A stretch of DNA of 64,000 nucleotides from Clostridium sp. 12(A). Lineage in GTDB: Bacteria > Bacillota > Clostridia > Lachnospirales > Lachnospiraceae. Location of the stretch: positions 248,001-312,000 of the forward strand of contig JAGI01000002.1 in NCBI GenBank assembly GCA_000526575.1, written 5' to 3'. The first letter of the stretch is position 1; every line of letters begins with the position of its first letter. Positions 43,311-64,000 of this stretch are shown in pieces. The notes under the pieces are model-generated. The model saw only the letters and a program-made list of their open reading frames with translations. It had not been told where the DNA came from and made no database searches. The position numbers were made by a program, and so were the translations under genes.

Positions 43311-44213
43311 ATGAATACAAAAGTAAATCTGGCTGGAATTGAACTGAAAAATCCTGTTATGACAGCTTCTGGAACCTTTGGCTCAGGGGAAGAGTACAGT
43401 GAGATGTTTGATTTAAGTCATCTTGGTGCTGTCGTCACAAAAGGCGTTGCAAATGTGCCCTGGCCGGGCAATCCTACGCCAAGAATCGCGGAAACATATG
43501 GCGGTATGCTCAATGCCATTGGACTTCAAAATCCTGGTATGGAGGTTTTTGCTCAAAGAGACATTCCGTTTTTAAAGAAGTATGATACAAAGATAATCGT
43601 CAATGTCTGCGGAAAGACAACAGAAGATTATCTTGCAGTAGTGGAGCGGCTTTCTGAGGAGCCGGTGGATATGCTGGAGATAAATATCTCCTGTCCCAAT
43701 GTGAAGGAGGGCGGAATCGCCTTCGGACAGGATCCAAAAGCAGTGGAAGCCATTACCCGTGACGTAAAAAAGTATGCGAAGCAGCCGGTTATCATGAAAT
43801 TAAGTCCCAACGTGACTGATATTGGAGTCATGGCAAAAGCGGCAGAAGCTGGCGGTGCTGATGTTATTTCCCTTATTAACACATTGACTGGAATGAAGAT
43901 CGATATTAACCGCCGTACCTTTTCTGTTGCCAATAAAACAGGCGGACTTTCCGGTCCCGCGATTAAACCCATTGCAGTCCGTATGGTATACCAGGCAGCC
44001 AATGCAGTGAAGATTCCAGTCATCGGTATGGGTGGTATTATGGATGCGAATGATGCCATCGAATTTATTCTGGCAGGAGCAACTGCGGTATCTGTAGGAA
44101 CCGTCAATTTCAGAAATCCATATGCAGCCGAAGAGGTGGTTAAAGGCATTGAGGCTTATATGGAGCGATACGGTGTGAAAGATATTAAGGAACTGATCGG
44201 TGCTGTAAGGTAG
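43311..44213 (+). CDS. pyrD: Dihydroorotate dehydrogenase, class 1B catalytic subunit
   Basis: This 300-aa FMN enzyme has MTASGTFGSGEEY at the start, the catalytic cysteine in NISCPNVKEGG, lysine in MKLSPNVTDI, and GMGGI near the C-terminus. Neighbour pyrK confirms the NAD-linked 1B type. The ATG directly follows the pyrK stop. In related clostridia pyrE follows, and here its start is present but broken. Confidence 0.96.
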   Translation: MNTKVNLAGIELKNPVMTASGTFGSGEEYSEMFDLSHLGAVVTKGVANVPWPGNPTPRIAETYGGMLNAIGLQNPGMEVFAQRDIPFLKKYDTKIIVNVCGKTTEDYLAVVERLSEEPVDMLEINISCPNVKEGGIAFGQDPKAVEAITRDVKKYAKQPVIMKLSPNVTDIGVMAKAAEAGGADVISLINTLTGMKIDINRRTFSVANKTGGLSGPAIKPIAVRMVYQAANAVKIPVIGMGGIMDANDAIEFILAGATAVSVGTVNFRNPYAAEEVVKGIEAYMERYGVKDIKELIGAVR

Positions 44214-44258
44214 ATGACAGGAATTTAAGCAAGAACTTTTTGAATAGAGAGGATAAAA

Positions 44259-44357
44259 ATGGAACAGTATAAACAGGAATTTATAGAATTCATTGTATAT
44301 GATAGTTCCAAACATCTCGAAAACCTTGTAAACACTGGATTTTACTGCATCTTATAG
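44259..44357 (+). pseudogene. pyrE: 5' fragment of pyrE (orotate phosphoribosyltransferase), cut by the prophage
   Basis: ATG 44259 after GAGAGGATAAA encodes MEQYKQEFIEFIV, matching the usual clostridial PyrE N-terminus. The similarity then ends, and the frame closes after 32 codons. Position right after pyrD is where pyrE belongs. Phage-like DNA follows at once, so integration probably removed the rest of the gene to the far side of the element. The short NTGFY near the end faintly resembles an internal PyrE motif; I give that little weight. Confidence 0.7.
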
Positions 44358-44586: not shown

Positions 44587-44832
44587 ATGCCAAGAGGAGT
44601 TCGCAAATCACAAGTGGAGAAATTAAAAGAAGAGTTACAGAACACACTAGATGCTATTGCACAATATAAAGCTGCAATAAAGACCCAAGAAGATAAAGTA
44701 AAACAGTTAAAAATCAACATACAGATGGAAGAGATGAAAGAAGTATCCGCTATCCTTGAAGAGAAAAATATGACAGTTGCAGAGTTAAAAGAATTTTTAA
44801 ATGCAACAGAAGTAAGTCCCTCTGATGAATAA
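44587..44832 (+). CDS. Small coiled-coil protein of 81 aa
   Basis: It begins MPRGVRKSQVEKLKEELQ and is predicted to be almost entirely helical with heptad-like repeats (residues 7-60), then a short helix (MTVAELKEFLNA) and acidic tail. Start ATG 44587 follows AAGGAGG. It is the first gene of the element and has its own promoter and terminator. I do not recognise a named family; small proteins with this start occur in clostridial mobile elements. Confidence 0.7.
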   Translation: MPRGVRKSQVEKLKEELQNTLDAIAQYKAAIKTQEDKVKQLKINIQMEEMKEVSAILEEKNMTVAELKEFLNATEVSPSDE

Positions 44833-44882: not shown

Positions 44883-44921
44883 GAACATATGTTTGCATTT
44901 TGCGATAATATATGATATAAT
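44883..44921 (+). promoter_or_regulatory. SOS-box-like operator and promoter of the lexA-like gene
   Basis: GAACATATGTTT (44883-44894) fits the Gram-positive LexA box. It overlaps a -35 TTGCAT (44893-44898); TATAAT follows at 44916-44921 after 17 bases. This arrangement suggests autorepression. Confidence 0.7.
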
Positions 44922-44954
44922 TAATTACCACCATTAGGAAGGGGCGTGATATCA

Positions 44955-45557
44955 ATGCATGAAATTACGGAGAAACAGCGACTCGTTTATGATTGTATTA
45001 AGGAATCTATTAAGACCTATGGGTATCCGCCTACAGTACGAGAATTATCAAACAAACTTGGAATTTCTAGCAGTGCGACGCAAGCTCGTCTTCGTAAGTT
45101 GGAGGAAGCGGGATATCTTAAGCGTGATCCTGCCAAACCAAGGACACTCGAAATAGTTAATGAGGATATAAAGGCTGTTACAGTTATAAATGCCCCTATA
45201 CTAGATATCATAGACAGTGATTCTCTTTTTTCTAATCGTAATATAAAAGGATATTTGCCCATACCAACTAATATAATTGATTTTAAAGAGATTTTTTTAT
45301 TTCAAGTAAAAGACAATAGTATGATTAATGCTCATATATTAGAGGGCGATATGATCATTGTTAATGTTGAGCCTACAGCGGAAGACGGAGATATAGTTTT
45401 AATATTATTAGATGCTGCAGTTATGGTAAGGCGCTATTTTAAGGATAAGGGCCATTATCGTTTGCAACCTGAGAATGATATTATGGAGCCAATAATTGTA
45501 GACCACGTGAAGATTTTAGGTAAGATAATCGGAGTTTTTAGATTAGATATACGCTGA
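44955..45557 (+). CDS. LexA-like repressor, catalytic lysine and cleavage site altered
   Basis: This 200-aa protein has the LexA winged-helix domain (residues 1-65; YGYPPTVRELSNKLGISSSATQARLRKLE) and an S24 peptidase-like domain with the serine motif DNSM (Ser122), LEGDMIIV and GDIVLILL. The expected catalytic lysine (V-x-V-K-R in LexA) reads MVRRY, so arginine replaces it at about 159. The usual Ala-Gly scissile pair is absent from residues 75-100 (INAPILD instead). Self-cleavage is thus doubtful. ATG 44955 lies 10 bases after GGAAGGGG; a GTG three codons earlier overlaps that site. Confidence 0.85.
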   Translation: MHEITEKQRLVYDCIKESIKTYGYPPTVRELSNKLGISSSATQARLRKLEEAGYLKRDPAKPRTLEIVNEDIKAVTVINAPILDIIDSDSLFSNRNIKGYLPIPTNIIDFKEIFLFQVKDNSMINAHILEGDMIIVNVEPTAEDGDIVLILLDAAVMVRRYFKDKGHYRLQPENDIMEPIIVDHVKILGKIIGVFRLDIR

Positions 45558-45600
45558 TTAAGACCACGCTATGTATGTGGTTTTAATTTTTGATTCAATA

Positions 45601-45614
45601 AGAACATATGTTCT
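45601..45614. promoter_or_regulatory. Perfect palindromic SOS-box-like site
   Basis: AGAACATATGTTCT, a perfect 14-base palindrome matching the clostridial LexA box. It lies 43 bases after the lexA-like stop and upstream of a 24-codon ORF. Confidence 0.75.
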
Positions 45615-45634
45615 GAAAGACAGGGACTAAGCAT

Positions 45635-45709
45635 ATGATAATTAGTGAAGATATTCATGATATTTATAGAAATAAAATCACGATTTCATCTGCTAATATT
45701 TTATTATAA
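45635..45709 (+). CDS. Possible 24-aa peptide downstream of the SOS-like box
   Basis: ATG 45635 with AGGGA about 10 bases upstream encodes MIISEDIHDIYRNKITISSANILL. It sits between two SOS-box-like sites and before the terminator at 45723. It may be a real damage-induced peptide or a chance ORF; length alone gives no support. Confidence 0.25.
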   Translation: MIISEDIHDIYRNKITISSANILL

Positions 45710-45722
45710 ACAGAAGTTAAAC

Positions 45723-45750
45723 AAGGAAGCAAATGTGCTTCCTTTCATTT
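45723..45750 (+). terminator. Weak terminator before the polymerase gene
   Basis: A 9-bp perfect stem AAGGAAGCA (45723-45731 with 45736-45744), 4-base loop, followed by TCATTT. Confidence 0.6.
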
Positions 45751-45761
45751 CCACTATTAAA

Positions 45762-45775
45762 CGAACATACATTCG
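45762..45775 (+). promoter_or_regulatory. SOS-box-like site in front of the Y-family polymerase
   Basis: CGAACATACATTCG matches the Bacillus-type SOS consensus (CGAAC-N4-GTTCG) with one mismatch. It adjoins TATAATATAAT (from 45778), so a repressor here would cover the promoter. Confidence 0.7.
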
Positions 45776-45800
45776 AATATAATATAATAGAGGTGATGAT

Positions 45801-47063
45801 ATGAAAAGAGTAATTTTTCACATAGATGCAAATTCAGCTTTTTTAAGCTGGGAGGCCGTGTACCGTCTCCATCATTTAGGTGGATCGTTGGATTTAAGAG
45901 AAGTACCATCTGCCGTTGGTGGTGATAAATCAAAAAGACATGGTATCATATTGGCTAAAAGCATTCCAGCAAAGAAGTATAAGATTCAGACTGGAGAACC
46001 GGTTCCCGATGCATTAAGAAAATGTCCACACTTAATTTTAGTACCTCCAAATTATAATCTCTATCAGAAATCCTCAGAAGCGTTTGTGAGAATTTTAAAA
46101 GAATATAGCTCCGAGGTAGAACAATACTCCATTGATGAATGTTTTGTAGACATGACTAGTACAGTCTCATTATTTGGAGAAGCTGAAGATGTAGCAAATG
46201 AAATACGAGAGCGTGTATATAACGAGTTGGGTTTTACAGTTAATATAGGTGTCTCATCTAGCAAAGTGCTTGCAAAAATGGCATCAGATTTTAAAAAGCC
46301 TAACCTTGTACACACTTTATGGCCTAATGAAATAGCTACAAAAATGTGGACTCTGCCTGTTTCAGATCTGTTTTTTGTCGGTAGAGCTACTAACAACAAA
46401 CTAAGAAATATAGGTATTAAGACAATAGGTGAATTAGCTAAAACAGATCTTGCAATATTAAAATCTCATTTTGGTAAACATGGAGAGGTTATCTGGTCTT
46501 TTGCCAATGGGATCGATTTCTCCGCTGTTGAACCAGTACCTCCACCTAACAAGGGATATGGGAATAGTACTACCATTTCCTTTGATGTTACCGATACCAA
46601 TACGGCTAAATTAGTACTTTTATCTCTGGCAGAAACTGTATCCGCAAGACTACGCGCCGATGATGTTAAAATTGGTGTTATATCAGTAGGCGTCAGGGAC
46701 TATAACCTAGAATATTACAGCCACCAAAAAACGCTTAAGACGCCAACAAATATAACTACAGAAATATATTATGCTGCATGTGAAGTATTTGATGAAATGT
46801 GGAACAAGATACCGATAAGACACCTGGGAATCCATACAAGTCACGTTACAAATGAAGACTTTAGGCAAATGAACTTATTTGATGCGGTTGACTATGTTAA
46901 ATTGCAGAAAATGGATAGAGCAGTAGACGACATAAGAAAGCGTTTCGGACTTGATTCTGTGAAAAGGGCAAGTTTTATAAGCGCCGAATCAATTGACCAT
47001 ATGAACGGTGGTATAAGCAGAGAAAAAAGAACTGTAGATTATAGTAAGCAAACTGTTTTATAA
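45801..47063 (+). CDS. Y-family DNA polymerase (DinB/UmuC-like)
   Basis: This 420-aa translesion polymerase has the palm motifs FHIDANSAFLSWEA (catalytic Asp9) and QYSIDECFVD, a helix-hairpin-helix region (FVGRATNNKLRNIGIKTIGELA) and a little-finger domain. QMNLF near residue 355 resembles a beta-clamp-binding motif. Start ATG 45801 follows AGAGGTGAT. The SOS-like box in front implies damage induction. It is closer to the UmuC/DinB variants common on Gram-positive mobile elements than to chromosomal DinB, an impression only. Confidence 0.93.
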   Translation: MKRVIFHIDANSAFLSWEAVYRLHHLGGSLDLREVPSAVGGDKSKRHGIILAKSIPAKKYKIQTGEPVPDALRKCPHLILVPPNYNLYQKSSEAFVRILKEYSSEVEQYSIDECFVDMTSTVSLFGEAEDVANEIRERVYNELGFTVNIGVSSSKVLAKMASDFKKPNLVHTLWPNEIATKMWTLPVSDLFFVGRATNNKLRNIGIKTIGELAKTDLAILKSHFGKHGEVIWSFANGIDFSAVEPVPPPNKGYGNSTTISFDVTDTNTAKLVLLSLAETVSARLRADDVKIGVISVGVRDYNLEYYSHQKTLKTPTNITTEIYYAACEVFDEMWNKIPIRHLGIHTSHVTNEDFRQMNLFDAVDYVKLQKMDRAVDDIRKRFGLDSVKRASFISAESIDHMNGGISREKRTVDYSKQTVL

Positions 47064-47074
47064 GGAGTTATAAT

Positions 47075-47386
47075 ATGGGGAGTTTTGGTATAGGTATTAA
47101 TGTTAAGGATATAGATAGTGGTCAGATAAAAGGGAAAATGTATAATGTTGCCTGTAAGACTTGGTTCACTTCTAATTGCAATCCAATACCTTTAAGCTTT
47201 AAATATGAAGCCGAAGATGGGACAATTCAAAGTGTTGTAAAATTATCGGTCAAAACTACAGAAGATAAGAGGTATGCAGGAGTTGCTACAAAAGAATATA
47301 AATGTGAAACCATTATTGAAGGAAAATGTCATAATTTTAAACTCATATTCTATTTAGAGGCTTGTAAATGGGTTTTGGTGTTATAA
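47075..47386 (+). CDS. Hypothetical 103-aa protein co-transcribed with the polymerase
   Basis: It starts 11 bases after the polymerase stop, with AAGGAG. The predicted fold is mostly beta strands (MGSFGIGINVKDIDSGQ; VVKLSVKTTEDKRY; FKLIFYLEACKWVLVL). No membrane segment is seen. The tight link suggests a partner of the polymerase, comparable in position to YolD- or ImuA-like partners, but it resembles neither. Confidence 0.7.
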   Translation: MGSFGIGINVKDIDSGQIKGKMYNVACKTWFTSNCNPIPLSFKYEAEDGTIQSVVKLSVKTTEDKRYAGVATKEYKCETIIEGKCHNFKLIFYLEACKWVLVL

Positions 47387-47442
47387 TGCTAATTAGTATA
47401 ATTCTGCATGTAGGCATGGGGAAATAAGTGGTAGCAATTAGA

Positions 47443-47477
47443 AACAAGCCGCATGGAGGTATACGGCTTGTTTTTTA
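47443..47477 (+). terminator. Terminator after the polymerase operon
   Basis: A stem of about 10-12 bp with one mismatch (ACAAGCCGCAT-type, 47444-47454 with 47460-47470), 5-base loop, then TTTTTTAT. Confidence 0.8.
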
Positions 47478-47503
47478 TATAATTAAGATGACAGATTAAA
47501 CAC

Positions 47504-47938
47504 TTAATATTTTATGGAGTTAACTGTATCTCCAATCTTTAAATCTATATCTCCACATTTTACGTTTAATTGCAAACTATAATCGAGTGTTCCATTTTTA
47601 GCACATATAAATATATCTTTTAAATATATAGTGTATTCCATATCTTTTTCAGGCAAGAACAGTGGTAGATCGCGAAATGATTTGCAAGAATTCAGATCAA
47701 GTTCTATATGATCTCTATAGCTCTTGTATATTATATTAAAGTACACCGTCTGATTCTTTATATGTGCATCGAATCTAAAATCCTCCATTTGAGGGATTCG
47801 AGTACTAGAGAAGTTATTTTTCTCGATATCAAAATATATATCATCATATTTTACTTCGATGTGTGGTGCTACCTCTAGCAAAATGTAATGCTTATCGTTC
47901 CTGTCAAAGGATATTACTATCTCATTTTTTACTTTCAT
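47504..47938 (-). CDS. Hypothetical 144-aa beta-rich protein
   Basis: It begins MKVKNEIVISFDRNDKHYILLEV and is predicted to be mostly beta strands with many charged residues and no membrane segment. ATG at 47938 is about 11 bases after GGAGG on the minus strand. It is divergent from ku with about 110 bases between, so the two may share a control region. No family is recognised. Confidence 0.65.
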   Translation of the reverse strand: MKVKNEIVISFDRNDKHYILLEVAPHIEVKYDDIYFDIEKNNFSSTRIPQMEDFRFDAHIKNQTVYFNIIYKSYRDHIELDLNSCKSFRDLPLFLPEKDMEYTIYLKDIFICAKNGTLDYSLQLNVKCGDIDLKIGDTVNSIKY

Positions 47939-48046
47939 AAGCGGCCGAACCTCCATTTTAATAATAATAATGGTCTCCAAAAAACACTTTATAATGCATA
48001 ATAAAAACAATTTATCACAACACTAATTAAAAAAGGAGGCTATATT

Positions 48047-48823
48047 ATGGCGATAGCGCATAAAAGTGCAATAAGTGTTGGTATGCTATACATTCCTGTG
48101 GGATTATATAAAACCACCAAAGATATATCTGTGAGTTTTAATCAACTTTGTAAAGATACTCACGAGCGTGTTAAATATAAGAAAATTTGTCCATCGTGTA
48201 ACAAAGAAGTTAGCAGTGAAGATATCATTAAGGGATATGAATATGAAACTGGAAAATATGTCACCTTTACTGAAGACGAACTAGAAAAAATTAAAACTAA
48301 GAAAGATAAAACAATACACATTGAACATTTTGCAAAGATGACAGATGTAGATCAGATTTATTATGAAAAGAATTACTACATTGTGCCAGAGCCAGGAGCT
48401 GAAAAAGCATGTGAATTATTAAGGCAAGCTATGTTATTGCAAAAAAAGGTGGGTATAGCAAAAACCGTAATTGGTACTACCGAAAAACTAATGGTTTTAT
48501 ATCCAACTAAAGATGGGATTATTGCCAAGACACTATTTTACCAAGCAGAGATACAGGCCTTACCAGTTGCAGTAGCAAAAGCTGATGTAACTAAACCAGA
48601 AGTGGATATGGCAAAAACTATGATCGATACTATGACTGAGACTTTTGATCCTTCTATCTATCACGATAATTACCAAGGACGAGTACGTCAGGCAGTCGAA
48701 AGTAAAATTGCAGGTAAAGAAATGGTAAGCGCTGATACTGGAGTGCAAAATAATATCATTGACATTATGGAAGCAATGACGAAAACCGTTGAAATGGTAA
48801 AAGGAAATAAAGGACTAGCATAA
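48047..48823 (+). CDS. ku: Bacterial Ku, DNA end-binding protein
   Basis: This 258-aa protein has the Ku core: AHKSAISVGMLYIPVGLYKTTKD at the start, FNQLCKDTHERVKYKKICPSCNKEV, then the characteristic IIKGYEYETGKYVTFT and YYIVPEPGAEKACELL. Bacterial Ku forms homodimers on double-strand ends and recruits LigD in non-homologous end joining. The C-terminal tail is short, without the lysine-rich extension of some Ku proteins. Start ATG 48047 follows AAAAAGGAGG. The ligase start overlaps its stop (TAATG). Confidence 0.95.
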   Translation: MAIAHKSAISVGMLYIPVGLYKTTKDISVSFNQLCKDTHERVKYKKICPSCNKEVSSEDIIKGYEYETGKYVTFTEDELEKIKTKKDKTIHIEHFAKMTDVDQIYYEKNYYIVPEPGAEKACELLRQAMLLQKKVGIAKTVIGTTEKLMVLYPTKDGIIAKTLFYQAEIQALPVAVAKADVTKPEVDMAKTMIDTMTETFDPSIYHDNYQGRVRQAVESKIAGKEMVSADTGVQNNIIDIMEAMTKTVEMVKGNKGLA

Positions 48824-49746
48824 TGGATATATTTGATACAAAGACAATTAGCCCTATGCTAATATCTGAAATGCAAGATCCCTTTGACTCGCCCGATTAT
48901 ATTTATGAAATAAAATGGGACGGGATTAGATGTGTATCTTTTCTAAGTGATCAAACAGATATGCGCAATAAGCGAAATAAGCTTATGACACCCATTTTTC
49001 CTGAATTAGAAAACTTGCATAAGCAAGTAAAGACCAAATGTATACTTGATCATGAATTACTTGTATTGAAAAATGGAGTACCAGATTTTTATGAAGTGCA
49101 AAAGAGGTCGTTAATGACTAACTCCTTTAAGATCCAGTTAGCGGCAGATCGGTATCCTGCATGTATTATAGCATATGATATCTTATATTATAAAGATAAG
49201 GAAATAACAATGCTTCCACTTATGGAACGGAAAAAATATCTAGAAGACGTTGTACAAGAAAATAATTTAATATCTGTATCTAGATACATTGAAAATGATG
49301 GGATTAAATTGTTTGAACTGGTAAAAGCCAAGTCACTTGAGGGGATAGTTGCTAAAAGAAAAGATAGCTTATATTGGCAGGGCAAGAAAACAAAAGACTG
49401 GATTAAATGCAAGGTGATGTCTACTGAGGATTGTATAATTTGCGGTTATATTTTAAAGGCTAATAATATGACAAGCCTTGTATTAGGTCAATATGACGGG
49501 GATACTCTAATATATCGGGGGCATGTGACACTGGGGGCCAGCCTCAGAATATTAAACCAGCATAAATACAAGGTGATTGATTACTCTCCTTTCGGATATG
49601 TGCCAGAAGGCAATAATGACGCTGTATGGTTGAAACCAGAGTTGGTTTGCATTGTTGAGTCCATGCCCACTGAAAAAGACAGTTTTCGTCAACCGGTATT
49701 CAAAGGAATTCGCGACGATAAATCAGCAATAGAATGCAAAATATAG
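48823..49746 (+). CDS. ligD: ATP-dependent DNA ligase, LigD ligase domain only
   Basis: This 307-aa enzyme has nucleotidyltransferase motif I EIKWDGIRC with Lys31 as the adenylated residue, further motifs AYDILYYKDKE, EGIVAKRKDSLY and DWIKCKV, and a C-terminal OB-fold domain. It lacks the polymerase and phosphoesterase domains of multi-domain LigD, so it must get those activities elsewhere or do without. Overlap with ku shows translational coupling. It closes the repair island. Confidence 0.94.
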   Translation: MDIFDTKTISPMLISEMQDPFDSPDYIYEIKWDGIRCVSFLSDQTDMRNKRNKLMTPIFPELENLHKQVKTKCILDHELLVLKNGVPDFYEVQKRSLMTNSFKIQLAADRYPACIIAYDILYYKDKEITMLPLMERKKYLEDVVQENNLISVSRYIENDGIKLFELVKAKSLEGIVAKRKDSLYWQGKKTKDWIKCKVMSTEDCIICGYILKANNMTSLVLGQYDGDTLIYRGHVTLGASLRILNQHKYKVIDYSPFGYVPEGNNDAVWLKPELVCIVESMPTEKDSFRQPVFKGIRDDKSAIECKI

Positions 49747-49894: not shown

Positions 49895-51226
49895 TTATGT
49901 TTCTGAAGGTTCGTTATTGGATATTTTATTTTCATCATTTAAGCATTTGCAATTACAACAAAACATTTTTTGTAAAAATTCAGCTTTTGTTAATATATCA
50001 ATTTTTGAGCTGTTAATTACATCTTGGGCTAAATCTTGAACTAGCCTTTCTCTATCATTCAATAGCTCTATCTGGTTATTTTCTAATTGTTTTAATCTAA
50101 TATCTTCATCTCTAGTTTTTAGTAAATAATCTTCTAAAGCAGGATTGTTCCCTAATACGGTCTCTGCAACAATACCATTTGCACCCATAGTAATTGTATC
50201 TGCACTTAATATATATCCAGGTACAGTTATAGTTTCTTGACTGCCATCCGGATTTACATGTATATAATCCGTGTTAGTTTTAAGGAATCTCCGATAAATA
50301 CCATTAGGCAAAACAACAATTTCATATATTTGCTTAGATTCATTAAGATAATCATAAAAATGTAGCTGTGCTAATAAAGTATCTTTAACTTTTTCTTTTT
50401 TTTCTTCTTTTATAAAATCCTTTAGTAAATTATCTAATTGTTGTAATGAATATTCATATAGTTTACCTTTTGTGTGGTCAGAATTATCTAAATCCCAGAT
50501 GCAAAGTTTAACGTCTATAAGATGTTCTATAATTAAAAAATGTTGCGTAAGTTGGTGAAAAGTAAAATTCAATGTGCAATTAATATTAGGGTTTTTAATT
50601 TTTCTTAACACGGTTTCAGAGGTATTAGTTATAACTCTTTCATTTTTCATATCAACTTTTACTACACGACTGGCAGAGGCCGTAGATGCATGTTTTTTTA
50701 TGGAATTTTTCATTTTTTCGGAAAAATTATCCCTTGACGCTTGCATACTATAATTGAATGATCCAGATCCTTTTGCGTTACCTAAACCCCAATTTGCACG
50801 TGCTTTCGCCGCACCATTCATAGTTTCTATTTCTACATTTTTGCTTTCGTCAGTTTCTTGCTCGTTAACAGTTGTTTCAAATGATTTTTTACTGTTATCG
50901 GAGTATGAATCAAGTATTGATTCATATTCTAAACTTGTTGTCATAGAAGATGATATAGTTATTTCAGTTTCTTCCCCAGGTAATAAAGTAAATGTATTTA
51001 ATATTTTACCTGTTCCGAAGCCCAATGAAAATATTGATTTGTTATAAATTTCTGTTATCATAAGATTTCTTGTTGAATTATTAGGTTGCGAATTAAATAT
51101 ATCATTATCAACATGTTCAGTAGTATTGTCTTGTAATATTTCGATTTTGGTATTATTAGCTTCTACGAAGATATTCGGTTGCGCAACTTTTTTTAGAGGT
51201 CCTTCATATTTAATATAATTAATCAT
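49895..51226 (-). CDS. 443-aa protein of unknown function, separate from the tail operon
   Basis: The protein has an N-terminal region with LGFGTGKILNTFTLLPGEE and ITISSS, a serine, asparagine and glycine-rich middle (WGLGNAKGSGSFNYSMQ), a helical charged part, and a C-terminal coiled coil ending in a cysteine cluster CCNCKCLND. There is no signal peptide or membrane segment. ATG at 51226 follows AAAGGAG. A terminator at 51311-51352 separates it from the tail genes, so it likely has its own promoter, like a moron gene. No function can be assigned; pore-forming or virion-associated roles are only guesses. Confidence 0.7.
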   Translation of the reverse strand: MINYIKYEGPLKKVAQPNIFVEANNTKIEILQDNTTEHVDNDIFNSQPNNSTRNLMITEIYNKSIFSLGFGTGKILNTFTLLPGEETEITISSSMTTSLEYESILDSYSDNSKKSFETTVNEQETDESKNVEIETMNGAAKARANWGLGNAKGSGSFNYSMQASRDNFSEKMKNSIKKHASTASASRVVKVDMKNERVITNTSETVLRKIKNPNINCTLNFTFHQLTQHFLIIEHLIDVKLCIWDLDNSDHTKGKLYEYSLQQLDNLLKDFIKEEKKEKVKDTLLAQLHFYDYLNESKQIYEIVVLPNGIYRRFLKTNTDYIHVNPDGSQETITVPGYILSADTITMGANGIVAETVLGNNPALEDYLLKTRDEDIRLKQLENNQIELLNDRERLVQDLAQDVINSSKIDILTKAEFLQKMFCCNCKCLNDENKISNNEPSET

Positions 51227-51310
51227 TCTTCTTACTCCTTTCGAATAGAAATAGTATTTACGTAATTAATAAAAAAATACTTAACACCTATAATTAGAAC
51301 AGAGTATCAC

Positions 51311-51352
51311 GTAAAAAATAGGGAATATAAGAGTAGACCCCTCATATTCCCT
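51311..51352 (-). terminator. Terminator of the tail operon (minus strand)
   Basis: Reading the minus strand, AGGGAATAT (51344-51352) pairs with ATATTCCCT (51320-51328), and the 3' side runs into ATTTTTTAC. It lies right after the CD1375-like gene. Confidence 0.75.
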
Positions 51353-51361
51353 AAATAGTTT

Positions 51362-51508
51362 TTATACTTCAATTCCCTTAGTAACTAAAATTTCTTTAAC
51401 TTCTTTTTTGATTTTTTCAGGTACTTGTTCAAATGTCTTGTATGTAATTCCTGTCTTTAAGCTTGCTTCAATTAAGTCAGCGTATACATAAGAAATAGGT
51501 GTTGTCAT
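51362..51508 (-). CDS. CD1375-family small phage protein
   Basis: This 48-aa ORF encodes MTTPISYVYADLIEASLKTG and ends in a helix with PEKIKKEVKEILVTKGIEV. The pattern VYA-x-LI ... V-P-x-x-x-(K/R)-x-E-V-x-x-ILV is that of the CD1375/XkdX-like proteins found after tail fibre genes in clostridial phages. Its ATG overlaps the stop of the upstream gene by one base. Function unknown. Confidence 0.7.
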   Translation of the reverse strand: MTTPISYVYADLIEASLKTGITYKTFEQVPEKIKKEVKEILVTKGIEV

Positions 51509-51891
51509 TATTTATTTCCCTCCATTTTTTCATATAGATCAGCTATGATCTGCTGTAGTGTTATAATTTTTTCTTCGAGTGTTATTTTGTTTTCGTATGT
51601 TTCAGTTATAACTAGTTGAGATTGTATTAATTTTGACTGTAGATCAGCAATATTCTCCCTTTCAGTGGGGATATACATTACTTCTTCCAAAGAACCATCT
51701 TCTAAAATATGATAAAAAATACCATCCTCATACTTATCTCCGATATTAGTAGCATATCTTGTGGACTCCACAGCAAATGCTTTTTCACCAAACGATGCTC
51801 TTGCTAGTAGATTTGCAAGTTCATAATTTTCGCATTCAAATCTATTTTTTACAAATCCATCGTATATAAGTGCATATCTTAATTCATTCAT
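51508..51891 (-). CDS. Phage tail-end protein with C-terminal coiled coil
   Basis: This 127-aa protein has a mixed N-terminal half (MNELRYALIYDGFVKNRFECENYELANLLAR) and a coiled coil at about residues 75-125. It sits between the glycine-rich adhesin and the CD1375-like protein, a place often held by small adhesin-assembly proteins. It does not match a family I know. Confidence 0.6.
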   Translation of the reverse strand: MNELRYALIYDGFVKNRFECENYELANLLARASFGEKAFAVESTRYATNIGDKYEDGIFYHILEDGSLEEVMYIPTERENIADLQSKLIQSQLVITETYENKITLEEKIITLQQIIADLYEKMEGNK

Positions 51892-51902
51892 TCAAATCTC
51901 CT

Positions 51903-53489
51903 TTACCCAATATATCTAATAATACAGATTCCAGAGCCACCAGCGCCGCTATACCTCTTTGCACCTGAAGATTGCCGACCGCCACCGCCACCGCCACCAC
52001 CGCCAGAATTAGGTGTTGCATCTTGCCCATTGTTTGAAGTGCTAGCTGTGCCTCCAGGACCTCCTCCATAATATCCTCCTTGACCACCACCACCATCATA
52101 TGTTTGATGAGAACCATTCTTGGAGAATGTCCAATGACCACCGCCACCGCCACCGCCACCGCCAGAGTAAACTGTTCCGGTACCAAAGGCTTGAGTTGAA
52201 AAACCTTGTCCTCGACCACCTTCTTGTTTCCACGCCCTTACTTGATTACTATATCCATATTCATCATGTTCGTCGCCGTCGTTGTCACGATGCTCACCGG
52301 TTTTTATAATACTGTATAACGCCGATTGCCCGCCATTATTACCATTTGATCCACCATTTGCGCCCCATGGCGTACTATATAAATGATCTCTAGTATCTGG
52401 TTCGAATCCACCACCGCCACCGCCACCGGAGCCACCATTCCCATATGTATAATATGCGCTTTCTAGTTGTTTAGGAGTTTCTTTTCCTGTTGGAGTATAA
52501 TGTTTCAATATGTCTCCATATCCGCCGTAGCCTCCTTTAGCTACAATAGAGCCAAAAGATGTTGAGCTTCCATTTCGTTGAAGACTATACGAACTTCCTA
52601 AGTAACCTTCTCCTCCCAAACCTATGATTATTGGTATTTGTTGTCCTGATGTGACATTTATCGTTTGAGTAGTCGTATATCCGCCGCCACCACCAGATCC
52701 AGTAGCAGATTCGTTTGTATCCCATGAACCATCACCGCCTCCACCGCCGCCACCTACACAAAAAACTTCAACTTGGTTTATTCCATTAGGAACAGTCCAT
52801 GTCGTACTTGTAGTAAAGACTTGAGTTACAAGGTTTATATATACATTTTTAGTATAACTTGAGCTACCTAACCATTCTTGCCCATTAATAGTCGCGTAAC
52901 TAAAAGCTCTAAAGTAATAATTAATACTTGTACTAAATCCTCCAACTATAGCATTAGAAACTCCCCAAGCGTTTGTATTGTTACCAAAACCTTTATAAAA
53001 TCTTGTTCCATCGTTTATATTTGCAGGATAGCCCCCTGTTTTTCCTACAATTATTACTCCTGAAAATGGGCCATAAGAAGGATTCTGCCAAGTAAATATA
53101 ATCTGCGAAAAGGAGTAGGGGGCGCAACTAAAAGACAATATACTTTGTACGTTCATTGTTCCTGTAACTTTATTACCATTTGTCCAATATGTTTCTCCAT
53201 TTAAAACATGAGTGGGTATTGCCGTACCAGAGGTCTGACTGGCTAGACTATTTGCTATTACAGTAAAATCCTGTGCATGATAGCCTTTTTTTATATAAAA
53301 AGAACCACCTGCATTCAAACTTTGATTTGCAGTGGTTCCATTGTTCGCCATTTTACCTGTTCCTATTTCATCGTCTGTGTCTGCACCGACATAAGTCTTA
53401 CCGTCAAGTACGTATTCTTTTGTAACGGAAACTTCATCAGAACCGATTCCACCTCCGCCAGCAACGTTCGTTACACCGCATTTAGCCAT
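51903..53489 (-). CDS. Glycine-rich tail adhesin
   Basis: This 528-aa protein has an N-terminal tail-attachment-like region (VLDGKTYVGADTDDEIGTGKM, residues 27-47), a fibronectin-like middle (about 110-215), and a C-terminal glycine-rich domain with many poly-Gly runs, ending GGSGICIIRYIG. That ending is typical of phage receptor-binding glycine-rich proteins that expose loops on packed Gly helices. Its ATG overlaps the preceding stop by eight bases. It probably decides host binding. Gly codon tracts make repeated GCC-ACC DNA on the plus strand. Confidence 0.8.
   Translation of the reverse strand: MAKCGVTNVAGGGGIGSDEVSVTKEYVLDGKTYVGADTDDEIGTGKMANNGTTANQSLNAGGSFYIKKGYHAQDFTVIANSLASQTSGTAIPTHVLNGETYWTNGNKVTGTMNVQSILSFSCAPYSFSQIIFTWQNPSYGPFSGVIIVGKTGGYPANINDGTRFYKGFGNNTNAWGVSNAIVGGFSTSINYYFRAFSYATINGQEWLGSSSYTKNVYINLVTQVFTTSTTWTVPNGINQVEVFCVGGGGGGGDGSWDTNESATGSGGGGGYTTTQTINVTSGQQIPIIIGLGGEGYLGSSYSLQRNGSSTSFGSIVAKGGYGGYGDILKHYTPTGKETPKQLESAYYTYGNGGSGGGGGGGFEPDTRDHLYSTPWGANGGSNGNNGGQSALYSIIKTGEHRDNDGDEHDEYGYSNQVRAWKQEGGRGQGFSTQAFGTGTVYSGGGGGGGGGHWTFSKNGSHQTYDGGGGQGGYYGGGPGGTASTSNNGQDATPNSGGGGGGGGGRQSSGAKRYSGAGGSGICIIRYIG
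51974..52170. repeat. Trinucleotide-type tracts encoding poly-glycine
   Basis: Short GCC/ACC-rich arrays at about 51978-52005 and 52139-52166 (others at about 52411-52432 and 52738-52755) encode Gly runs in the adhesin. They are in frame and could change in length by slippage without breaking the gene. Confidence 0.6.
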
Positions 53490-54108
53490 CTTTTCTCACC
53501 ACCTCGATTTCTCTTATCACTAAGTCACTTTTTGGTCGCTTGTTTGCTTTTAAGACCACATTTCCAGCACCGGTATTTTCCTTTACTACGATAAAGGCTT
53601 TAGCTGCAAACAACATACTATCAGAGCCAAAATAGACATTTATCCTATCGTTCTCCAATATTTTGTCTGAGGAATATGTAAATGTTAAATTCTCATCCCA
53701 TTCACTAACTGGTATCTCAATATCGGTTGCAATGGTCACTCCGGTTAAATAGTCTGTTTTTAGGGCAGAGTATGCATTTGTTCTTTTATCTTCACCTGTT
53801 GCCGAATCATTAATGCCGACAGTATTCTGAGCAACGGTATGTACCATTGTGTCTACTTCTTCCATAAAAAACTTCTGTGTTGCTTTGACTCCGTCTAAAA
53901 GTACATTGAACTTTTCAGCATTAAATAATGATTTCATTAAGTTGGGGTATTGCTCTTTTATCTCAATCATTTTATCTGTATCATTATTAAGCCAAGCCTC
54001 ATTATATTGATCAATAATGGGACGGAGAGTAGAAGTAGCATCTTGCATATTTGGGAGGTCGCATATTGCTTCTGGGAATTTACTATGTGGGTATTCTGGA
54101 TAACTCAT
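53482..54108 (-). CDS. Phage tail protein of 208 aa
   Basis: It begins MSYPEYPHSKFPEAICDLPNMQDATS, has a helical central part (FNVLLDGVKATQKFFMEEV) and a beta-rich C-terminus (EIPVSEWDENLTFTYSSD ... KSDLVIREIEVVRKDG). ATG at 54108 follows AAAGGAG; the open frame extends six codons upstream. It overlaps the adhesin start. Position suggests a fibre connector or baseplate protein. Confidence 0.65.
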   Translation of the reverse strand: MSYPEYPHSKFPEAICDLPNMQDATSTLRPIIDQYNEAWLNNDTDKMIEIKEQYPNLMKSLFNAEKFNVLLDGVKATQKFFMEEVDTMVHTVAQNTVGINDSATGEDKRTNAYSALKTDYLTGVTIATDIEIPVSEWDENLTFTYSSDKILENDRINVYFGSDSMLFAAKAFIVVKENTGAGNVVLKANKRPKSDLVIREIEVVRKDG

Positions 54109-54126
54109 GACATCAACTCCTTTCAT

Positions 54127-55608
54127 TTATTTTCGATTGTAAACATAAGAAAAACTCTCTAAGAATTTATAGAGAGTTACTGACATAGTTCCATTACCTG
54201 TTGACCAACTTAAATTTTTTACAATATATTGGTTGGTTAAATTGTTGTACTTTGGAGTGAATTCTATTTTTGTGTTAACTTCCAACCAAGGTACTACCAA
54301 TGTAGTTAAGTTTATAGTATCCATCATAGCTGTCGATTTGTAAGTAAGGTATTCAGCCTGATTATAACAGGCGGCATTATCACTTAAACTGGAATAATCT
54401 AATGATTGAGATATCTCATAGCCTAGATTGGTCGTTGAAAATGGGCAATCTGGAGATTCCTCTACGTATCTTCCATAGCACTGGAATTGACCTAACAGGA
54501 ACAAGGCAGTTTGGTCAGGTGTAAGACGTCGGTAACGGAAGACGTAAATATTATCCTTCTTTAGTACCCCTTGTTTTAATGGATTCCCATCACCGTCATA
54601 AATAGGAATGGCGGAAGAGAAGTTGTTGATTGTAAATTTTGGAGCAACAAGATTGTCGCCATTTACCTTGAATGCAAGTTGTGTTAAATTATCTATACTA
54701 TCCCAAGACGTATACATATCAAAAGTTATACGATATGTGTTATCAATATATGTAGAGGTTTCGGCGTAACGGTCATCACTTTCTAATTCTAATACTTTTC
54801 CCCATATTTCTGTAACATTGTAGATACCATCAAATTTAGTATCTGCACTTTCGCTAACGACAATATCTTGCATAACCGTATCGTTTAAAATGACTGGGTC
54901 TTCTAAGCAGGTGGGAATTTGACGCCAGATAAAGGTTCCGTCTGCATCAAAATAAAATTCCCAGGAATCATATAGATCCCGGATTTTTGTCCAGATGTCA
55001 GCATATGTACTTCCCGTTTCAAAGGTTAGATCATAAGGGATTGGTTTACCAATGTCTTCTACAATATATCTGTCTATATCTGCATCTTTAAGTATTGCAA
55101 TGACAGAAGACCGGATATCCTCCCCGGCTGGTATGGTGAGATTCTTGATCGCGTAGTCTGGAGAATTATTAGAGGAGCCATAACCATGAATTTGTCCATT
55201 TAGAGTACCATCATATAGAGCCATAAGGTCAGCACATGCAACAGATAGCTTCTTTTCGGTACTGGAAAATGTATACTTCATACTGACATAGCAAAACACC
55301 CCTAGTTGATACCAAATAATTTCCTTTGTTCTAATAGATTTTATACCGTAGAAAACTCTAATACGTTTATCCAGCCATATCTTTTTATCTTTCCCTATAA
55401 TAAAGGAAGAGCTTAAAACAATAAGATCAAAATTATAGCTTCGACGCTGTATTGATTCATTATCTTGGCTGTAATTATCATTTATAATTTGGCCGTCAAG
55501 AGAGTCTAATATTTTCATATTAGAATTCAAAAGCTCCACTTTTAAATATATCTCCTGAGTGCCCTGTCTTAATAGTGATAAGTCAGTCTGTGATATTTCG
55601 CGTTCCAT
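54127..55608 (-). CDS. DUF5048-type phage tail/baseplate protein
   Basis: This 493-aa protein begins MEREISQTDLSLLRQGTQEIYLKVELL. It carries a beta-rich first half (DKRIRVFYGIKS, YQLGVFCYVSMKYTFSSTEKKLSV) and LYDSWEFYFDADGTFIWRQIP, as in DUF5048 proteins downstream of tape measure genes in Firmicutes phages, comparable to tail-associated baseplate hubs. Start ATG 55608 is close after an AGGT repeat that provides the ribosome binding site. Confidence 0.75.
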   Translation of the reverse strand: MEREISQTDLSLLRQGTQEIYLKVELLNSNMKILDSLDGQIINDNYSQDNESIQRRSYNFDLIVLSSSFIIGKDKKIWLDKRIRVFYGIKSIRTKEIIWYQLGVFCYVSMKYTFSSTEKKLSVACADLMALYDGTLNGQIHGYGSSNNSPDYAIKNLTIPAGEDIRSSVIAILKDADIDRYIVEDIGKPIPYDLTFETGSTYADIWTKIRDLYDSWEFYFDADGTFIWRQIPTCLEDPVILNDTVMQDIVVSESADTKFDGIYNVTEIWGKVLELESDDRYAETSTYIDNTYRITFDMYTSWDSIDNLTQLAFKVNGDNLVAPKFTINNFSSAIPIYDGDGNPLKQGVLKKDNIYVFRYRRLTPDQTALFLLGQFQCYGRYVEESPDCPFSTTNLGYEISQSLDYSSLSDNAACYNQAEYLTYKSTAMMDTINLTTLVVPWLEVNTKIEFTPKYNNLTNQYIVKNLSWSTGNGTMSVTLYKFLESFSYVYNRK

Positions 55609-55620
55609 ACCTACCTACCT
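55609..55620 (-). repeat. AGGT tandem repeat at a stop/ribosome-binding junction
   Basis: Three AGGT units on the minus strand (55609-55620) hold the stop codon of the 297-aa gene and the likely ribosome binding site of the DUF5048 gene. Confidence 0.5.
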
Positions 55621-56508
55621 ATCTAAATCAGTATCTATAAAACCATTATCAAATAAATCGCCATTACTATATGCATCTCCACATTCAGCAACGCTAAATT
55701 TAGTTGTAACATGTTCATAATAATCTGATTCTTCACTTATTTCATTACTAGTCACGCCTACCATATACATATTTCCTAAAAAGTCTTTTAAGATTTTTGT
55801 GTTTCCATTTGTTAAGAAGTCGTATACGGTATTACGGTATTTCCATGATGTGTTTTTTTGCCATAAGCCATTTTTTAATTCGATAAAGGTACATGAGATA
55901 TCACCAGTAAAATAATTTATTTTACCACCTTTTATAATTACAGGTTTAGCTCTACCCTGTAATTCTACTAATGATGTTCTATGTATCATTTTTCTATTAA
56001 ATGTGGTATCTAAAATCATAGGATATGAGATATCTTTTTCACAAATAAAGTAAGAGTCAAACTTTGACTCTACCTCATTTATAATGTAATCTCCCTCGCC
56101 TCCTGAAATAATTGGCACATAAGCATATTCGATTATACCGATAGGCTCAAAATAATCCATGATTTCTATTGCAAAATCACCATTACTGATAATCTGCTTT
56201 TCAAATATTGTTCTGAATTTAGCTTCGTTTTTCAATCTTCGTTTTATACGAACGGATTCAACAATACTCTCGGTGAAATTAACATTACCTCCGTATAGAT
56301 TATTTTGGAATAATGCATGTAATCTTGTTTCAAATTCCCACCTAGATGGAATAGTACCATCAAAATTATTTACCTCAATCAAATCGTTTGAAGAATATAT
56401 TTCATCGAAGATAGCATTTTCAATACTCAGAATTTCCACTTCTTGTGGTAACACGGGCGAAGATGATAATGCACCAATGCTCCCGGAAAAACAACCTCCT
56501 ATAAACAT
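55615..56508 (-). CDS. Phage tail protein of 297 aa, unknown
   Basis: It begins MFIGGCFSGSIGALSSSPVLP, with a beta-rich body (WEFETRLHALFQNNLYGGNVNF, VIIKGGKINYFTGDISCTFIE). Start ATG 56508 follows GAGGTGATAATAA. It sits between the FN3-like protein and the DUF5048 protein. It may be part of the baseplate; no family recognised. A hydrophobic start could look like a lipoprotein (GGC), but the run is too short. Confidence 0.6.
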   Translation of the reverse strand: MFIGGCFSGSIGALSSSPVLPQEVEILSIENAIFDEIYSSNDLIEVNNFDGTIPSRWEFETRLHALFQNNLYGGNVNFTESIVESVRIKRRLKNEAKFRTIFEKQIISNGDFAIEIMDYFEPIGIIEYAYVPIISGGEGDYIINEVESKFDSYFICEKDISYPMILDTTFNRKMIHRTSLVELQGRAKPVIIKGGKINYFTGDISCTFIELKNGLWQKNTSWKYRNTVYDFLTNGNTKILKDFLGNMYMVGVTSNEISEESDYYEHVTTKFSVAECGDAYSNGDLFDNGFIDTDLDR

Positions 56509-56519
56509 TTATTATCACC

Positions 56520-57581
56520 TCACTTTTTATTTACATATATAACTTTTAAATCATAGTAACTACCTATACGATTTACACATAAGGCAAACTGTTGAGCTTC
56601 ATTATTTGGCAAATCTATGTAATTACTAAAAAGTACATAGTTAAATCCGCTTGAGATTGCATTTAATTCAAAAAATGCTTTTTCTCCATTAGAATCTGAA
56701 AAGCTGCCTTTGCGATAGAAGATATCTACGTTGAAGTTCTTCCCATCTTCTAGGTGTATGATTCTATTATTTTGTTTAGGCTCATAAAAAACAAATACTT
56801 TAGTAAAGTTTCCCTCTGTTTTAAAACCTACATCATAAGTGACTTTATTATCTCTTAAATCTACGTACTCATTATCAATATATATAACATCTTTTTCTGG
56901 AATGCCAACTGAAGATACGATGTTGCTTTTTATCTCAATACAACCATGTTCAGATTTGTTGTTTAACTCAAGAGGACTAAAGATTTGAGCGATTTGATAG
57001 GAGACGGTTAATAATATATAACCTGTGTCTAAAATCTTGTTGTGTAATGTCTTTCCCGTAGCTCTTAAATAATATTGCTTTGCATTTTCGAGACCAGTAA
57101 TCGTATATGACATATCTGAGGTATCATATATATTTCCAGATGATTGTAATTCTGTTTTTTGGTAGGTATATAGTGTTATACGAAATGAGTTTAGAGGTTC
57201 ATCTTCCGCTTGGTAGTAATTTAGTCCTACTCTACAAGCAGAAGATTTGAGAATATCACTTTCCTCCACAGATATTCTGAATGTGGGAGTTGAAAGACAG
57301 TAAAAGGGGGTACCAATACCCTGTATACTTGATTCTATATCATTAACGTCAAAAACTGTTATATAAGCTATATAATATCCGCCATTCTCCAAACCAGAAT
57401 TTGACGGAATAACAAAAGATTGTTTCATCGAATCATTAATATGGTCATATATAGTTTCACCAGATGCATTATCCTTTACAATGCATCGAACTTTATAAAC
57501 CTGATTGCCTTGCCATGTAAATTTGATTTCTGTTCCAATAGTCGAATCAAATGGTTCTATGGGGTGTATTATCGCATACAT
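56520..57581 (-). CDS. Fibronectin-type-III-like phage tail protein
   Basis: This 353-aa protein begins MYAIIHPIEPFDSTIGTEIKFTWQGNQVYK, resembling FN3 domains (about residues 8-95 and 100-195; GLENAKQYYLRATGKT). The rest is beta-rich. Such domains stiffen or extend tail tips and fibres. ATG 57581 follows AAGGAGATATA. Confidence 0.6.
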   Translation of the reverse strand: MYAIIHPIEPFDSTIGTEIKFTWQGNQVYKVRCIVKDNASGETIYDHINDSMKQSFVIPSNSGLENGGYYIAYITVFDVNDIESSIQGIGTPFYCLSTPTFRISVEESDILKSSACRVGLNYYQAEDEPLNSFRITLYTYQKTELQSSGNIYDTSDMSYTITGLENAKQYYLRATGKTLHNKILDTGYILLTVSYQIAQIFSPLELNNKSEHGCIEIKSNIVSSVGIPEKDVIYIDNEYVDLRDNKVTYDVGFKTEGNFTKVFVFYEPKQNNRIIHLEDGKNFNVDIFYRKGSFSDSNGEKAFFELNAISSGFNYVLFSNYIDLPNNEAQQFALCVNRIGSYYDLKVIYVNKK

Positions 57582-57591
57582 TTATATCTCC

Positions 57592-58392
57592 TTATACAAG
57601 ATCTGTAGGTGTATATATTACAAGGAACATTGCCGAAAACAAACCGCCGCAAGAATAATCATTATGGTTGAACCACCTTACTCTAAATTCAATTCCGTCA
57701 ATCTTAGTAATATCAATTGTAACGTTAGCTGTATCGCAACCAATAGGTATAAATATAGCATTGTTACCTATTCCACTAATATTACAAATGTATGATTCTT
57801 CAGTATATGATCCTGGTTCAATAGTATCTACATTATCGTTGACTTGGTATATTTCAAATTTCTTAAAATAGTTATTAGATACGTTTTTTGTATAATAACG
57901 GGAATCGTGATCTTTCGAATCTGCTTTTTTATGTAAGTCAAACACGGAAGATGAGATCTTATCGTTTAGGGCTGTTTGTTGCTTAATTGAAATAGGCTTA
58001 TCTTGATCTGATGTATTGTTAACTTTCTCTAAACCAATATTTTCAGCAGTAATATTAACATTTCCATTTCTATAAGTTGTTTCTGAATTTCCTTTTACTC
58101 CAGTAACACCAGACGTTGGTAAGTTATCTTTTGTGTATGTATTGGATTGTATGTACAACTCATTCCAATCATTACCTGGAGCACATACCCAGACCATATC
58201 TTCGATATTAACATTACCATCACACTTTACAACATAATCTTTGCCCTTGTATAACACCTTACACTTCTTGGTTGATAAATTATCAATAACCTTAGCGCGA
58301 AATGTTTTGTCATACTTTAATGAGTCTGCTTTTATGCTGAATAAATAATTAAGATCTTCGGCAATTTTTTTATATACATCTTGAAAATTCAA
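57592..58392 (-). CDS. Phage baseplate/tail-tip protein with collar-like segment
   Basis: This 266-aa protein has an N-terminal beta-rich domain (KAKVIDNLSTKKCKVLYKGKDYV, an OB-like fold by pattern) and a central GLEKVNNTSDQDKPISIKQQTALNDKIS segment, seen in many short-tail-fibre and collar proteins. The C-terminal 100 residues are beta-rich. The start is TTG 58392 with AAAGGATGGTG about 6 bases upstream; no ATG is near. Confidence 0.65.
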   Translation of the reverse strand: MNFQDVYKKIAEDLNYLFSIKADSLKYDKTFRAKVIDNLSTKKCKVLYKGKDYVVKCDGNVNIEDMVWVCAPGNDWNELYIQSNTYTKDNLPTSGVTGVKGNSETTYRNGNVNITAENIGLEKVNNTSDQDKPISIKQQTALNDKISSSVFDLHKKADSKDHDSRYYTKNVSNNYFKKFEIYQVNDNVDTIEPGSYTEESYICNISGIGNNAIFIPIGCDTANVTIDITKIDGIEFRVRWFNHNDYSCGGLFSAMFLVIYTPTDLV

Positions 58393-58434
58393 TTGTTCAC
58401 CATCCTTTTAAGGGACTCTTATTAGAGTCCCCAA

Positions 58435-63597: not shown

Positions 63598-63620
63598 TTA
63601 AATTAATTAGTAAGTATAAT
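63592..63620 (+). promoter_or_regulatory. SigmaA promoter for the zinc-ribbon gene
   Basis: TTGCAA (63592-63597), 17-base spacer, TATAAT (63615-63620), 36 bases before the start. The -35 box overlaps the apparent start of the tape-measure ORF. Confidence 0.65.
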
Positions 63621-63655
63621 ATATTCAATATAAAAAATTCTTGGAGGAGAAAAAT

Positions 63656-64000
63656 ATGGCGCTAATTGAATGTCCTGAATGTGGAAAGCAGGTTAGTGAT
63701 ACTGCAAACGCTTGTCCTAATTGTGGGTATGATATAAAGAGTTTTGTTGAGTATTGCCCACATTGTGAATTACTTGATAAAGAAAAGATACTAATGAGTT
63801 TTTCAAGAGATCAAAACGTATACACTTGCCCAAAGTGTAACAGAACAATGGGTGTTGCTTCTCCAGAAGCAGAAGCTAATTGGGCAGCACAGAGACAAAT
63901 GGAACAAAATCTTCCCAAATGTCCATATTGTAGTTCTACCAATTTGAAGAAAATTTCTGGTCTATCTAAAGCTGGTAGTGTAGCTTTGTGGGGTGTTTTT
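63656..64000 (+). CDS. Zinc-ribbon protein, cut by the window end
   Basis: The first 115 codons encode ECPECGKQVSDTANACPNCGYDI, then CPHC, CPKC and CPYC pairs, so at least two or three zinc ribbons. The visible end, LSKAGSVALWGVF, resembles small zinc-ribbon membrane-associated proteins common in Firmicutes and their phages. Start ATG 63656 follows TTGGAGGAG. It is divergent from the tape-measure gene. The role is unknown. Confidence 0.8.
   Translation, partial: MALIECPECGKQVSDTANACPNCGYDIKSFVEYCPHCELLDKEKILMSFSRDQNVYTCPKCNRTMGVASPEAEANWAAQRQMEQNLPKCPYCSSTNLKKISGLSKAGSVALWGVF

Follow-up and report, generated by a model that had tools for sequence, protein, structure and literature searches.

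A prophage-borne repair island in Clostridium sp. 12(A) combines a LexA-like gene, a bypass polymerase, Ku and an ATP-dependent ligase with putative LexA boxes

We analysed a window of 64,000 nucleotides from Clostridium sp. 12(A) (Lachnospiraceae; contig JAGI01000002.1, positions 248,001 to 312,000, here G000:C2:248001-312000, G000 being the 4.6 Mb genome of the studied strain). A repair island was found at the left end of a prophage of about 139.4 kb, encoding a LexA-like protein, a Y-family DNA polymerase (polY), a small protein (sp103), the end-joining protein Ku and an ATP-dependent DNA ligase, with three putative LexA boxes of the GAAC-N4-GTTC type within 900 bp (Table 1). A preliminary description, made from the letters of the window alone, had named the LexA-like, polymerase, Ku and ligase genes, and all four were confirmed as open reading frames with matches to family profiles; the Ku and ligase frames overlap by one base, bearing out the coupled pair that it reported. 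The ligase exceeds the cut-offs of both Pfam ligase domains and falls short of that of TIGR02779, the model of the non-homologous end joining (NHEJ) ligase domain (206.7 bits, curated cut-off 227.75). Its interpretation, a phage element that may supply end joining and mutagenic bypass, was partly supported. We suggest that the island is probably SOS-inducible damage-tolerance cargo of a large temperate phage, providing translesion synthesis and end joining to the lysogen.

The element is an integrated phage, as had been proposed. It is inserted at the start of pyrE, and a 39 bp direct repeat marks both ends. To the left of the attachment (att) repeat attL stand pyrF, pyrK and pyrD (gene names assigned by eye), ending at 44213, and an intact pyrE follows the right-hand copy at C2:431656. 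Between the repeats we found the island, beside attL, and then tail genes, a tape-measure gene, portal, large terminase, replicative helicase, DNA polymerase and an NAD (nicotinamide adenine dinucleotide)-dependent ligase, with the integrase at the far right end. The distance from attL to the end of the island ligase is 5.5 kb, making the 'within 5 kb' of the earlier account approximate. In G399, a second genome of the species (one contig, 99% complete), pyrD was joined directly to pyrE, and the flanks of this empty site were identical to those of G000 over 2441/2441 bases on the left and 1539/1539 on the right. The single Ku and the single PF01068 ligase of G000 lie inside the island, and no counterpart of either was found in G399, indicating that the end-joining genes here come with the prophage; presence and absence within the species rests on these two genomes. 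In the control genomes of the searches, Ku was matched in 1 of 14 and a PF01068 ligase in 6 of 14. A chromosomal origin of the island was ruled out by the empty site.

It is hardly credible, then, that a prophage simply happens to adjoin ordinary repair genes of the chromosome, since the genes stand inside the att repeats and are missing, together with the prophage, from G399. What speaks for that idea is the wider genus, in which 14 of the 15 Ku-bearing genomes carry a Ku-ligase pair on the chromosome, outside any island. Ku is accordingly not scarce in this genus, as the preliminary description had supposed for clostridia; of 23 genomes of the genus, 15 have it (26 among all 145 relatives), usually as a Ku-ligase pair on the chromosome and in differing locations. 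For twelve of the 14 pairs, the 8.5 to 20 kb of fetched sequence contain no further island gene. The fetched pairs occupy six different neighbourhoods (one, L055, known only from an 8.5-kb contig), suggesting that the Ku-ligase pair itself moves, and none of them adjoins pyrD, the place at which the tail-bearing prophage stands in G000.

The regulatory sequence of the island was then compared with that of related loci (numbered L). The entry in the preliminary description started at 44883, which is exactly a LexA box, and the box at 45602 is the core of the Bacillus subtilis consensus as quoted in PMC8270828. The three boxes together fit the pattern of an SOS regulon. The whole prophage has 13 boxes of a loose pattern, and its left 60 kb holds only the three of the island. 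A box was found at most 200 bp before polY at 37 of 38 loci, phage and chromosomal, mostly at 38-60 bp, and the single locus without one has just 28 bp of upstream sequence. This count took hits of at least 40% identity that start within the first four residues, leaving out for example L112, L125, L131, L168, L177 and the decayed L046 copy, and the box counts include duplicates (L099 of L057, L118 of L056, L081 of L068, L180 and L181 of the window). The same distance before Ku held a box in 6 of 125 cases (L094, L095, L096, L154, L155 and L168), the background being 43 of 2484 tiles of 200 bp. Before the lexA-like gene a box was present in 6 of 10 rows, host lexA among them. In the islands L056, L068 and L057, Ku begins 55-70 bp behind sp103 or SRAP and is read the same way, and a transcript induced by damage should thus extend into Ku. 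End joining should stand behind an SOS promoter in three of the four Ku-bearing islands, judging from this layout, and the case of the window is less clear.

The first gene behind a box had been described as an SOS-like LexA repressor. Membership of the LexA family stands (TIGR00498); cleavage in the SOS response does not follow, for the residues concerned have been lost. We aligned the window protein with seven others, host LexA and six from islands. The catalytic Ser is present in all eight, the catalytic Lys is replaced by Arg in the window copy alone (kept in 7/7 others), and the Ala-Gly cleavage pair is absent from the window copy and kept by 6 of the 7 others (Ala-Ser in L057). As we take the Ala-Gly pair and the Ser/Lys dyad to be what LexA uses to cleave itself, the protein should not self-cleave and should not be a normal SOS sensor. 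It is full length and apparently gave up self-cleavage; its most likely role would be to occupy the same boxes irrespective of damage and to limit or delay expression. Alternatively it may be an activator by analogy with gp6 of phage GIL01, which is a truncated homologue of LexA and activates late genes (PMC6182141, in the parts describing gp6). Both are phage proteins of the LexA family that should have no working self-cleavage domain and would act beside host LexA boxes; gp6 consists of the DNA-binding domain only, whereas the window protein has the full length and substitutions in its active site. The activation of late genes by gp6, and a 95-amino-acid LexA DNA-binding-domain protein beside Ku-ligase on the viral contig L094, also favour a rival explanation that we consider unlikely: the LexA-like protein would be the lysogeny repressor or a late-gene activator, and the repair genes mere bystanders of an operator cluster. 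A weak argument against it is that the three boxes of the left 60 kb lie before island genes and not before late genes.

polY has the acidic active-site residues and a C-terminal QMNLF (both recognised by eye), which we take to be a clamp-type motif. Its neighbour sp103 is one of two small proteins that the preliminary description had listed as unknown. Both are present, and sp103 turned out to be a conserved partner of the polymerase: it was matched in 67 of 397 genomes of the family, and polY adjoins it in 26 of the 29 best loci besides the window (up to 1.5 kb searched on each side), with SRAP as well in 5. The predicted structure is all-beta (predicted local distance difference test score, pLDDT, 87.9), and a C-terminal Trp is shared by 15/15 rows in one alignment and 29/30 in another (Phe in L208). 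Comparison of the model with solved structures gave no convincing match. With E values of up to 10 allowed, 4/4 members of the sp103 family matched no Pfam entry, not even YolD (PF08863); remote YolD kinship is possible. ImuB-C is described as beta-rich with a conserved C-terminal Trp, standing alone in operons with DinB, LexA, SRAP, Ku and ATP ligase (PMC3765255, in its account of these operons), and as coupled with two YqjH polymerase groups, mostly in Clostridia (Timinskas and Venclovas 2019, PMC6511836, in its treatment of YqjH). On the strength of the polY neighbourhood, the all-beta model, the C-terminal Trp and these two descriptions, we called sp103 a probable standalone ImuB-C, an assignment by context and fold type and not by a profile match. 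The clostridial YqjH with ImuB-C of PMC6511836 shares the polY-sp103 gene pair and the small beta-rich partner, as far as that part of the source goes; the pair of the window differs in being phage-borne and joined to Ku-ligase. The second small protein, sp168, is an orphan. No family was found for the full 168 amino acids or for a 143-amino-acid part, and among the viral contigs only the prophage's own record matched. Its position is taken by SRAP in L057 and by nothing in L056 and L068.

In the mechanism that we propose, DNA damage would make host LexA leave the boxes, and polY and sp103 would be produced. The polymerase would bypass lesions together with sp103, its ImuB-C-like partner, and Ku with the ligase would join broken ends. 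In three of the four Ku-bearing islands, Ku-ligase directly behind polY-sp103 (or SRAP) would be switched on together with them; in the window the pair would be read through past sp168 or from a promoter of its own. The LexA-like protein, blind to damage, would hold the same boxes and set a limit or delay (or activate). The lysogen would gain end joining and mutagenic bypass, protecting host and prophage together.

Related islands, their parts reshuffled, were found in other phages and genomes. G022, the fifteenth Ku-bearing genome of the genus, has two Ku genes, in islands L056 and L057, both built like that of the window; they adjoin chromosomal genes different from those at the window, and L057 also has homologous tail genes. 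From the IMG/VR database, L068 carries a Ku 83% identical to that of the window and a ligase from another lineage (54%). The neighbours of eight islands were scanned, and in five they matched tail, lysis or virion families (L056, L067, L068, L072 and L076); those of L065 matched phage families of no assigned function, but L065 has homologues of window tail genes, and the scan of L066 and L075 returned nothing informative. In the Ku and ligase trees (55 Ku and 62 ligase rows, built by a quick method; identical sequences merged, Ku from 120 to 96 and ligase from 126 to 103), the island copies fall at more than one place among chromosomal copies, indicating exchange between islands and chromosomes in either direction. 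In G006 a ligase-bearing, Ku-less island lies 4-6 kb from the chromosomal Ku-ligase pair (L045:14662-17551), as does a decayed polY-Ku-ligase remnant in G008 (L046:2534-4266); this closeness could be chance or a trace of recombination. We also observed viral contigs with a Ku of about 45% identity. Two of them (L095:1-1272 and L096:480-1730) have polY divergent from Ku-ligase with LexA boxes between, and in L094 the gene of the DNA-binding-domain-only protein (L094:5807-6094) is transcribed away from Ku-ligase, a box standing 108 bp ahead of Ku. In these three, SOS control and end joining may have come together independently.

Several observations weigh against SOS-inducible cargo for the lysogen. 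No box was found before the lexA-like gene in 4 of the 10 rows (L045/L075 and L068/L081). In the window, sp103 and Ku are 660 bp apart, with the opposite-strand sp168 between them, and the 200 bp ahead of Ku hold no LexA box, making SOS control of end joining no more than a possibility there. A scan of the + strand of the gap showed no site resembling a terminator or a promoter, but it finds promoters at background level (30 vs 28.5); the -35-like match at the 44883 box is likewise at background level. The ligase consists of ligase domains only and is not a multi-domain LigD, having no LigD polymerase or nuclease domain. Nor is end joining a constant part of the islands. A ligase without Ku in the fetched stretch was seen in L045/L075, L065 (IMG/VR), L066, L072, L076 and L077 (as sp103-ligase in the IMG/VR contigs L066, L072, L075, L076 and L077); L067 (IMG/VR) has polY, sp103 and SRAP and neither Ku nor ligase, and L229 (IMG/VR) has coiled-coil protein, LexA, polY and sp103 with no Ku or ligase in the island, its contig carrying a Ku elsewhere (L086). 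Furthermore, the prophage may be defective. An open reading frame of 1720 amino acids (window 58435-63597) matches positions 955-1674 of the tape-measure family phrog_4211 and one of 695 amino acids (L003:12066-14153) matches the adjacent stretch 557-948, the two being about 11.5 kb apart with genes resembling tail-fibre genes (by eye) and an IS66-type element between them.

That split match, the scatter of island copies in the Ku and ligase trees and the lost active site of the LexA-like protein speak for passenger DNA, genes acquired by recombination with host chromosomes that have no present role, possibly in a defective prophage. We regard this as distinctly unlikely. Between the window and L057, the proportions of differing non-synonymous and synonymous sites (pN/pS) were 0.083/0.703 for Ku and 0.062/0.805 for the ligase; such few amino-acid changes against saturated synonymous change suggest that the products have been used. 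The boxes are also conserved, and the same parts were assembled repeatedly in separate phages. Less easily set aside, though still unlikely in our judgement, is that the island serves the phage itself, with Ku and ligase protecting phage DNA on injection or during replication and circularising it, and the polymerase copying damaged phage templates after induction. Ku is carried by mycobacteriophages, Gam offers a precedent (PMC1378119, in what it reports of Gam), and a prophage that encodes a helicase, a DNA polymerase and an NAD-dependent ligase puts effort into replicating itself. However, the island with its LexA-boxed genes lies at the att edge, at a distance from the replication genes; an NAD-dependent ligase is already available to the phage; and in several related islands Ku was missing from the fetched stretch.

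Table 1. Features of the repair island and its surroundings (window coordinates)
Feature	Position	Strand	Remarks
attL, 39-bp direct repeat (pyrE start)	44252..44290	+	exact match to G000:C2:431656-431694
81-aa (amino acid) predicted coiled-coil protein, first island gene	44587..44832	+	homologues at same place in L045, L056, L057 (45-49% identical)
LexA box GAACATATGTTT	44883..44894	+	63 bp before lexA-like gene; overlaps promoter-like -35
LexA-like gene	44946..45557	+	TIGR00498, 164.8 bits (cut-off 110.95)
Terminator-like stem-loop behind lexA-like gene	45556..45588	+	consensus match only
LexA box GAACATATGTTC	45602..45613	+	pattern scan
LexA box GAACATACATTC	45763..45774	+	38 bp before polY; same site in related islands
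polY, Y-family DNA polymerase (YqjH/PRK03103-like)	45801..47063	+	Pfam IMS, 143.2 bits
sp103, 103-aa all-beta protein	47075..47386	+	polY partner, candidate standalone ImuB-C
sp168, 168-aa orphan open reading frame between sp103 and Ku	47504..48010	-	opposite to operon
Ku (bacterial), 258 aa	48047..48823	+	TIGR02772, 256.6 (cut-off 150); PF02735, 158.6 (25)
ATP-dependent DNA ligase, 307 aa	48823..49746	+	PF01068, 99.8 (cut-off 26.2); PF04679, 49.7 (27.5)
Prophage tail region, convergent with island	49895..64000	-	prophage runs on to G000:C2:431656

Other features of the prophage were recorded. Between island and tail genes, a protein of 443 amino acids (49895-51226) could not be assigned to a family by Pfam, PHROGs, NCBIfam or PADLOC. 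The prophage also encodes a nicotinamide phosphoribosyltransferase (phrog_448, E 4.6e-149), in the region L059:16313-19841 (G000:C2:387313-390841) plus L060:18004-19941, next to genes resembling nicotinamidase and NAD synthetase (by eye); with the NAD-dependent DNA ligase these possibly form an NAD-salvage set. A protein of 915 amino acids (L004:15530-18277) matched phrog_8308, whose function is not assigned (E 3.2e-249), and carries a DxDGD-like motif that, we presume, recalls the RNA polymerase YonO of SPbeta. The insertion parts pyrE from pyrF-pyrK-pyrD, and pyrE now lies in the same direction behind the phage integrase (G000:C2:430900-431700), so its expression may depend on the prophage. 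In G014, G015 and G022 an att-like sequence was found about 0.3 to 2.6 kb away from the pyrD match, and these pyrD-pyrE gaps are possible insertions or remnants at the same site.

Parts of this arrangement are already known, namely the gene combination in bacterial neighbourhoods, Ku in mycobacteriophages and LexA homologues in phages. The DinB/ImuB-C/LexA/SRAP neighbourhoods of Aravind et al. 2013 (PMC3765255) have, in the part describing them, the same polymerase, ImuB-C-like protein, LexA, SRAP (here in L057), Ku and ATP-dependent ligase; they are conserved bacterial neighbourhoods, whereas the present set stands at the att edge of a large prophage, has a LexA predicted to be cleavage-deficient and holds the strain's only end-joining genes. 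The mycobacteriophages Omega, Corndog and relatives encode, like the window, a Ku of bacterial type (PMC11936186, for the phages it names), which is 24.6-28.8% identical to the window Ku among the matches listed (39 of 80). That few phages carry Ku, as the preliminary description had it, was borne out by tblastn (81 of 50,697 phage records, 80 of them mycobacteriophages). The SPbeta prophage of Bacillus subtilis is likewise a large temperate phage with LexA boxes (PMC8270828); the passages of that source on SPbeta mention no Ku or ligase, unlike what we found in the window prophage. SPbeta-like records were among the weak terminase matches, at 26-32% identity over 35-43% of the length among the matches listed (38 records matched). 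Among the titles listed in a literature search that covered few subscription papers, none was on Ku in clostridial prophages or on a clostridial prophage joining bypass polymerase, Ku and ligase behind LexA boxes, and this arrangement would count as a new variation on known parts. A 2020 survey of bacterial NHEJ reported that the system was gained and lost many times, that 60 genomes have copies on plasmids, and that chromosome stretches predicted to be horizontally acquired contain none; its main text does not use the word 'phage' (PMC7719229).

G000 and G399 form a natural strain pair for phage-conferred end joining and SOS mutagenesis, and the island offers a full-length member of the LexA family apparently without self-cleavage. 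More tentatively, and at less than even chances, large temperate phages of Lachnospiraceae may be shuttles that assemble, mutate and pass round an SOS-controlled cassette for bypass and end joining. They would bring NHEJ to strains without it and exchange Ku and ligase with chromosomes, and some lineages would swap the self-cleaving LexA for a damage-blind one, making the cassette obey the phage and not the host. If true, this would help to explain the patchy, repeatedly gained NHEJ of clostridia.

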